From positions 1 through 29,669 of IMG/VR virus record IMGVR_UViG_3300013102_000802: a stretch of DNA of 29,669 nucleotides; one strand, written 5' to 3'. The notes under the pieces were generated by a model. It was not told the DNA's origin. It did not search any database and was given only the letters and a program-made list of their open reading frames with translations. Position 1 is the first letter of the stretch; the number at the start of each line of letters is the position of its first letter. Shown piece by piece: positions 7,636 through 9,845 of the stretch. This DNA comes from a virus. The position numbers and the translations under genes are program-made.

Positions 7636-7672
7636 AAAAGCCCCAGACCATGATGGTTGTGGGGCTTTTTTT
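7636..7672 (+). terminator. Intrinsic terminator of the early operon
   Basis: AAAAGCCCCA (7636-7645) pairs with TGGGGCTTTT, with a further ACCA/TGGT inner stem, and runs into a T-tract at 7666-7672. A classical Rho-independent terminator. Genes beyond it (tiny ORFs, gemA, mor) need read-through or their own promoter. Confidence 0.9.
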
Positions 7673-8033: not shown

Positions 8034-8123
8034 ATGTTAAGAATTGCCTTTGAAGTCTTCGCGGCACTGGTATCATGCTGGTATGTTATCTGGTTATTAA
8101 TTGACAATATTATCCAGTTGTGA
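8034..8123 (+). CDS. Tiny membrane peptide 4, 29 aa
   Basis: ATG 8034 to TGA 8121-8123, beginning 3 nt after the previous stop. One hydrophobic segment of about 24 residues (AALVSCWYVIWLLIDNII). No SD of its own, so it would need coupling. Its 3' end overlaps the candidate promoter at 8101. Confidence 0.3.
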   Translation: MLRIAFEVFAALVSCWYVIWLLIDNIIQL

Positions 8124-8135: not shown

Positions 8136-8196
8136 GTTAAAACTGTTCGCCACAATTTGAAAATGGCTCAAGCCCCGCCCTGTGCGGGGCTTTTTC
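8136..8196 (+). ncRNA. Candidate short RNA or attenuated leader
   Basis: The RNA between the predicted start (near 8136) and the terminator would be about 60 nt: an unstructured A/T-rich 5' part ending in a GC hairpin with a U-tract. That is the form of an Hfq-type sRNA or of a leader in which termination is controlled. No known RNA family was recognised. Confidence 0.3.
8171..8195 (+). terminator. Intrinsic terminator before the gemA operon
   Basis: AGCCCCGC (8171-8178), a short loop, then GCGGGGCT and TTTTT (8191-8195). Strong Rho-independent form. It separates the tiny-ORF region from gemA-mor. Confidence 0.88.
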
Positions 8197-8912: not shown

Positions 8913-9362
8913 ATGCGCGAGTTCGACCTTGAATCCCTCGAAGAGCTGCTGCCGGATACCGCCCGCCAGATAGCCGATGTGATTGGCTTCCCCGCCACGC
9001 AGCGGCTGATTGAACGCTTTGGCGGTGCCTGTTTCCCTGTCGGTCGCGGTCTGCGCGGCACTGGCGAGCGCCGTCTGGCCATGCTGCGGGACGTTATCGG
9101 CGAAGAGAACACCCGCCAGCTTGTTAAGCGTTTCGGCGGTGACAGTTCGCTGGTGATCCCCCGCTGCGCTGGTGCGCTGCGCGAGTGGCGCAACCGCTGT
9201 TTTCTCGCCGAGGTTGACAGCATGCTGGCCGATGGCGAATCATTGCGTATGGCGCTCACGGTACTCGGCCCCAAATACGGCATCGGTAACACCCGTGCAT
9301 GGGCCATTGTGGCAAGCCGCCGTCAGGCTGTTTCTCCCCCGGCACAGGGGGCGCTGTTCTGA
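8913..9362 (+). CDS. mor: Mor family transcription activator
   Basis: A 149-residue protein of the Mor/C family. The N-terminal half is the dimerisation part (ESLEELLPDTARQIADVIGF). The C-terminal part has LTVLGPKYGIGNTRAWAIV in the position of the HTH recognition helix. Mor in Mu switches on the middle promoter, which drives C, and C then drives four late promoters. Here no second Mor/C protein is found: the lysis genes begin 84 nt after mor. So Mor probably activates the late promoters directly. GGAGG at 8901-8905 and ATG 8913 define the start. Confidence 0.93.
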   Translation: MREFDLESLEELLPDTARQIADVIGFPATQRLIERFGGACFPVGRGLRGTGERRLAMLRDVIGEENTRQLVKRFGGDSSLVIPRCAGALREWRNRCFLAEVDSMLADGESLRMALTVLGPKYGIGNTRAWAIVASRRQAVSPPAQGALF

Positions 9363-9369
9363 TGGTATA

Positions 9370-9416
9370 CCGCTTCACCCCCGTATCATGCCCTGAGTTA
9401 CGCCTCCCATCACAAT
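9370..9416 (+). promoter_or_regulatory. Candidate late promoter 1 (lysis/packaging operon)
   Basis: CCGCTTCACCCCCGTA at 9370-9385, then a -10-like CACAAT at 9411-9416. The same 16-bp motif with the same 41-bp offset to a -10-like hexamer recurs at 16927 and 28490, each time before a late operon. The motif would lie at about -53 to -38, where Mor/C-type activators bind. There is no -35 consensus, as expected for an activator-dependent promoter. Confidence 0.65.
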
Positions 9417-9446
9417 AACCCTCACAAACTTTGTGAGGGTTTTTTT
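9417..9446 (+). terminator. Terminator hairpin overlapping the endolysin SD
   Basis: AACCCTCACAA (9417-9427), loop ACT, TTGTGAGGGTT (9431-9441) form a perfect 11-bp stem followed by T residues to 9446. The endolysin ATG is at 9447, and its SD (GAGGG, 9435-9439) is inside the 3' arm. The hairpin should both stop transcripts arriving from mor and hide the SD in any read-through RNA. Confidence 0.85.
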
Positions 9447-9845
9447 ATGTCTTCTTTCCGCTTCAGTCAGCGCAGCGAGTCCCGCCTGCAGGGTGTTCAC
9501 CCTGACCTGGTGAAAGTGACCCGCCGTGCGCTGGAACTGTCTCCCGTTGATTTTGGTATCACCGAAGGCCTCCGCTCTCAGGAACGCCAGAAACAGATGG
9601 TCGCTCAGGGCAGCAGCCAGACTATGAACAGCCGCCACCTTACCGGGCATGCGGTCGACGTTGTGGCGTATGTCGGCAGTGATATTTCGTGGGATATGCC
9701 GCTCTATCAGCAGATTGCGCAGGCGTTCAAACAGGCTTCAGTTGAGCTTTCCATCCCCGTTGAGTGGGGTGGCGACTGGAAAACGCTGAAAGATGGCCCG
9801 CACTTCCAGCTTCCCTTTGCACAATATCCGGCTACAGCCGCGTGA
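9447..9845 (+). CDS. M15-type L,D-peptidase endolysin
   Basis: A 132-residue peptidase of the M15 family (T5 endolysin / VanY-like), expected to cut peptide cross-bridges of host peptidoglycan at lysis. Zinc ligands are H64 and D71 in SRHLTGHAVDVVA and H119 in DGPHFQLP. The preceding segment GLRSQERQKQMVAQGSSQT is also typical. There is no signal peptide, so it should depend on a holin. Mu uses an unrelated lysozyme-type enzyme at this place, so this is a substituted lysis module. SD GAGGG lies 7 nt before the ATG, within the terminator stem. Confidence 0.92.
   Translation: MSSFRFSQRSESRLQGVHPDLVKVTRRALELSPVDFGITEGLRSQERQKQMVAQGSSQTMNSRHLTGHAVDVVAYVGSDISWDMPLYQQIAQAFKQASVELSIPVEWGGDWKTLKDGPHFQLPFAQYPATAA

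Follow-up and report, generated by a model that had tools for sequence, protein, structure and literature searches.

A predicted activator-dependent promoter nested in a hairpin over the endolysin ribosome binding site: a probable lysis lock in a Mu-like transposable phage

How can a phage carry its lysis gene directly behind its early operon without killing the host cell early in infection? Phage Mu is without a holin, the usual timer of lysis, and the control of lysis in other transposable phages, whose endolysins are very diverse, is largely unstudied (PMC9239132). The question is raised here by a Mu-like transposable phage, an IMG/VR virus record of 29.7 kb that was analysed over its whole length and is referred to below as the window. 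The window encodes a Mu-type transposase, and in it the gene for GemA is followed by genes for a Mor/C-like activator, an endolysin, a DUF2644 membrane protein and Rz-like spanins. The endolysin (9447-9845, plus strand) is a 132-residue protein of the M15 peptidase type, assigned through PHROG 465 (endolysin, E = 5e-74) and Pfam Peptidase_M15_4. Between the stop codon of the activator gene at 9362 and the endolysin ATG at 9447 lies a hairpin, which is the subject of this work. Two more terminator-like hairpins (7638-7672 and 8170-8192) are found upstream, between the early genes and gemA, and the approximately 530 bp that they enclose have little recognisable coding content and contain a TTGACA at 8101.

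The gene that follows gemA (8913-9362, plus strand) encodes a Mor/C-like late transcription activator of 149 residues, which we presume to act at the promoter described below. This assignment rests on the match to PHROG 836, 'late transcriptional activator' (E = 1e-35, 123.7 bits), on profile comparison by hhalign with Mor and C of Mu, Vibrio and Shewanella (74 columns, E = 6e-5) and on gene position; the match to the Pfam Mor family (PF08765; E = 0.0032, 17.9 bits) falls under the curated cut-off of 24.9. Neither a Foldseek search of the activator model against the PDB nor a profile search of PDB sequences gave a Mor match or any significant hit. The predicted model contains a repeated helix-helix-strand unit ahead of C-terminal helices that no solved structure matches, and the sequence has two FGG motifs. 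The window has no second gene for an activator of the Mor/C type, but the record is possibly incomplete.

The hairpin that precedes the endolysin gene has a perfect 11-bp stem with arms AACCCTCACAA and TTGTGAGGGTT (9417-9441, plus strand) and a 3-nt loop, ACT, and it runs into a T7 tract at 9440-9446. Its fold z-score is -4.55, with none of 200 shuffles folding equally well, and the combination of a stable, G+C-containing 11-bp hairpin with T7 directly after it makes it a predicted intrinsic terminator. The original prediction, which had been made from the DNA letters, described a perfect 11-bp hairpin with a T-tract at 9417-9446 and placed the Shine-Dalgarno (SD) sequence of the endolysin in its 3' arm. 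Both points are upheld, the first by the fold statistic and the terminator scan and the second by the position of GAGGG (9435-9439, plus strand), which lies wholly within that arm and 7 nt ahead of the ATG. The single nucleotide that it had left between the T-tract and the ATG has to be corrected to none, as the T run abuts the ATG. In 25 distinct enterobacterial sequences, counted without regard to relatedness, 93.6% of cells in the stem pair, against 30-62% when the partner is slid; four stem pairs show two-sided changes (25 cells), and none of 500 shuffles reaches the covariation score. One stem pair is C-G in 12 sequences and U-A in 12. An Rfam search with the element found no family at threshold, and a match to STnc350 on the opposite strand (28.4 bits against a threshold of 60) was taken as chance. 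No match to the element was found when E. coli genomes were searched.

Immediately ahead of the 5' arm stands the hexamer CACAAT (9411-9416, plus strand), a weak -10 sequence with four of six matches to TATAAT. Five of its six positions are invariant among 32 distinct enterobacterial relatives, in an alignment that is anchored on this hexamer. Approximately 31 bp upstream of the -10, the same relatives share a conserved block centred on CCCC (CTTCACCCCCGTATCA; 9373-9388, plus strand), a candidate operator for the activator, and between the CCCC block and the hexamer lies a spacer of constant length, about 23 bases, with little conservation. At the operator position, L109 has the perfect dyad CTACG-CCCC-CGTAG, which is imperfect in the window itself. 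The register between operator and -10 matches that of the Mor site of Mu Pm, centred at -43.5, and this places the predicted transcription start at 9423-9424 (plus strand), within the 5' arm of the hairpin. At 9424 or the corresponding position, 29 of the 32 enterobacterial modules and 11 of the 12 from Pasteurellaceae have an A. A scan for sigma70 promoters found no -35 and did not list the CACAAT site, as would be expected because the promoter is presumed to be activator-dependent. It is best described as a predicted Mor-type promoter that uses host sigma70, with one Mor/C-like activator encoded just upstream. A -10 at 9411-9416 and a start near 9423-9424 had both been proposed at the outset; the former agrees with the conservation of CACAAT across the 32 relatives and the latter is supported, as a prediction, by the conserved register and the Mu Pm distance. 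The idea that the -10 is conserved merely because of the stem was rejected, since the hexamer is outside the stem in most members. Outside the enterobacterial clade the hexamers were picked by eye, and for the Vibrio and Shewanella phages CATAAT in 1.136 was replaced by CACAAT within the arm, where the operator register fits better, which is a judgement call.

What would a start within the hairpin do to the endolysin ribosome binding site (RBS)? Opening energies were computed in silico at 37 °C for positions -15 to -4 in a 50-nt and in a 24-nt leader. The endolysin start costs 17.2-17.6 kcal/mol to open in the long leader and 4.1 kcal/mol after truncation. Ranked against all 779 ATG, GTG and TTG starts of frames of at least 60 codons in the window, it comes first for closure (17.2 kcal/mol; background 6.1 +/- 2.8) and first for release by truncation (a drop of 13.1 kcal/mol; background 0.4 +/- 2.4). 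Every base of the SD is paired in the read-through RNA (unpaired probability 0.000), and computation in this way bears out the claim that RNA coming through from upstream carries a masked SD. An RNA begun at 9424 keeps at most the 4-bp remnant ACAA/UUGU, as had been predicted, whereas for one begun at 9423 the remnant is 5 bp; the SD is outside both. With a start at 9420, most of the SD would still be masked. The description of the SD as free in the late RNA holds with regard to the remnant and the opening cost, but in RNA from 9423/9424 it pairs weakly with the coding sequence (about -2.4 kcal/mol).

We propose that the hairpin acts as a lock on the lysis gene and the choice of start site as its key, so that lysis is tied to the activator-dependent promoter, and we consider this reading to be distinctly probable. 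Early RNA that comes through gemA and mor would fold the full hairpin, and much of it would end at the T-tract; RNA reading past the T-tract would have its SD buried and yield little or no endolysin. The Mor-like activator, once accumulated, would bind at about -43.5 and bring RNA polymerase to the -10 at CACAAT. Initiation at about 9423/9424, inside the 5' arm, would then give a late RNA that lacks the SD-pairing portion of the arm; unable to form the terminator, this RNA would present its SD unmasked on a leader of 23-24 nt. The computational tests, namely opening costs, register, covariation and recurrence in other phages, all agree with the original prediction that translation of the lysis gene would be tied to the late promoter. 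If true, a cis-acting RNA lock would explain how a lysis gene can stand directly behind an early operon without early cell death. On the other side, several points count against the lock: the -10 matches the consensus weakly, the activator scores below the Pfam cut-off and its model has no Mor match among known structures, the SD of the late RNA is not entirely unpaired, and the strong terminator-like hairpin at 8170-8192 may already halt some early transcripts before they reach gemA.

The same geometry recurs in other phages. In SuMu, Mannheimia phage 3927AP2 and their relatives a different hairpin (AAAGTCTCTTTAA..TTAAAGAGGCTTT) covers the RBS, and different hairpins likewise lie over it in Pmp9, in AFS-2018a, in VW-6B and its relatives, in Klebsiella phages, in Vibrio 1.136 and martha and in Shewanella MuM16-2. 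These hairpins are flush with the lysis ATG or a few bases from it, and the start given by the -10 candidate falls in the 5' arm; their sequences are unrelated between the Pasteurellaceae, VW-6B/Klebsiella and Vibrio/Shewanella clades. The gene behind the module is of the M15, GH24, GH19 or amidase type, that is, the endolysins are unrelated, and in L110, L121-L128 and L187-L194, which have further genes separating mor from the lysis gene, the module remains in front of the latter. Across 64 distinct modules, truncation lowers the median opening cost from 14.6-16.7 to 2.5-5.7 kcal/mol, the values differing between clades. In 11 named relatives with an annotated lysis gene, the lysis start is among the top three of its region in nine and first in seven, and the comparison of these lysis starts with 154 other annotated starts gives p ~1e-5. 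When all ATG frames after mor were scanned (about 95 loci), the lysis start was best or second best in most.

The comparison between clades also bears on a simpler explanation, that the early operon ends in a normal terminator, pushed against the lysis gene by a compact genome, and that its overlap with SD and promoter has no further regulatory meaning. The T run of at least five in 30 of 32 enterobacterial and all 12 Pasteurellaceae modules is in keeping with this, as is the early terminator of Mu, which adjoins Pm and masks no RBS. However, the hairpin is found without a T run in L157, L158, L183, L184, L121-L132, L198, L112 and L117, the SD is within the arm in all clades, and where other genes intervene the module adjoins the lysis gene instead of following mor, so that we regard the explanation as unlikely. 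Counted by type, a T run of five is missing, with the hairpin kept, from 11 of 15 GH19/VW-6B-type modules, from martha and from L112 and L117. Because several members without a T-tract keep the hairpin, selection seems to act on masking of the RBS itself and not on termination alone, and termination would be a second lock in those modules that have the T run.

It is considerably less probable still that the RBS is masked as described but that transcription starts upstream of 9417, and that release is brought about by a protein, an RNase cut or ribosomes. RNase processing is common at hairpins, and the start site used here is a predicted one. An upstream start would, however, leave the opening cost at about 17 kcal/mol, and the start expected from the conserved -10 is within the arm. 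Ribosomes that terminate on mor would stop at 9362, too far (55 nt) from the hairpin to open it. Lastly, a dyad across the start region could bind a regulator as a palindromic operator in the DNA, with no RNA element involved, but the arm spacing differs from clade to clade and also among members of one clade, different clades have unrelated sequences, the SD is always under one arm and paired changes preserve RNA pairing, which leaves this reading with almost no weight.

The module has limits to its spread. It is absent from lys of Mu and D108 and from JBD69, HS6, MuM16-1 and PhiKM, and in sampled genomes of Gammaproteobacteria none of the 19 regions surrounding Pfam-Mor matches that could be scanned contained one. 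These 19 regions rule out a generalisation to all Mor-family loci, and the claim is therefore limited to the lysis cassettes of certain transposable phages. Nor is the module strictly tied to endolysins, because at L096 2514 and L103 646 the first gene behind it is not a recognisable endolysin and has no PHROG match. In L095 (438-510) the ATG of the module opens a 16-codon frame. This frame overlaps, as ATGA, the start of an endolysin of the lysozyme type, whose N-terminus carries a hydrophobic segment, and the arrangement suggests translational coupling. In L094 the activator frame has two stops, the hairpin is decayed and there is no ATG at the usual place. The start of mor is itself behind an RBS-masking hairpin in some Pasteurellaceae phages (L160 2501, opening cost 20.4 to 4.0 kcal/mol; L199 2489, 16.7 to 3.6 kcal/mol; weaker at L161 2495), and in Pmp9 a perfect TATAAT stands just ahead of the 5' arm at mor; these phages may have reused the lysis-type switch for mor. 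High RBS masking is also seen at starts in the packaging region, downstream of the lysis cassette (L161 4935, 14.4 to 1.9 kcal/mol; L199 4983, 12.9 to 2.3 kcal/mol). That activator-dependent promoters nested in RBS-masking hairpins are the general lysis-timing device of transposable phages in which a Mor-type activator controls the lysis cassette directly, that they were built anew several times from unrelated sequences, and that Pasteurellaceae phages reused them before mor, is a proposition to which we give roughly even chances. The lock, if true, would also provide a simple, testable rule for finding activator-dependent promoters in transposable phages.

A leader of this kind is known from T4 gene e, where the long early RNA masks the RBS and the late RNA starts inside the structure, with an approximately 100-fold effect; T4 soc, 49 and I-TevI have the same kind of leader (PMC3014915). 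As in T4 gene e, which encodes lysozyme, the long transcript of the locus studied here pairs the SD in a stable structure, and a late RNA without the 5' portion of that structure is predicted to be translated, the likeness being one of mechanism and not of homology. The two differ in that T4 uses its own late sigma promoter (TATAAATA), whereas the promoter here is predicted to be of the Mor type and to use host sigma70; the hairpin here is also terminator-like, and the sequences are unrelated. The site bound by Mor at Mu Pm is a dyad that has a G/C-rich spacer and its centre at -43.5, and the promoter has a -10 and no -35 (PMC4390567; PMC4287176). The candidate site described here has the same centre, a -10 without a -35 and the same location just after mor. 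Unlike the hairpin here, the early terminator of Mu is upstream of the Pm start, overlaps the Mor site and covers no RBS. Only mild structure is predicted at the gp18 start, where opening costs 6.5 kcal/mol before and 2.8 kcal/mol after truncation, and the Mu endolysin is controlled by C and Plys. Pm was rejected as a full homologue, as the terminator hairpin of Mu and the gp18 RBS are separate. In IS10-type transposase leaders, the SD is masked in outside RNA and free in transcripts that the element initiates itself; their purpose is to ignore outside transcription, whereas the promoter here appears to be a developmental switch. RNA-seq of the transposable phage Fc02 (PMC9936078) has no bearing on the matter, its mor being at the genome end and away from the lysis genes, and we found no report in the open-access PMC literature of a lysis switch with its start in a hairpin in transposable phages. 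The principle is already known from T4 gene e; what is new is the Mor-type, terminator-fused version and its breadth and, if true, the solution used by T4 gene e would be widespread in an unrelated group of phages.
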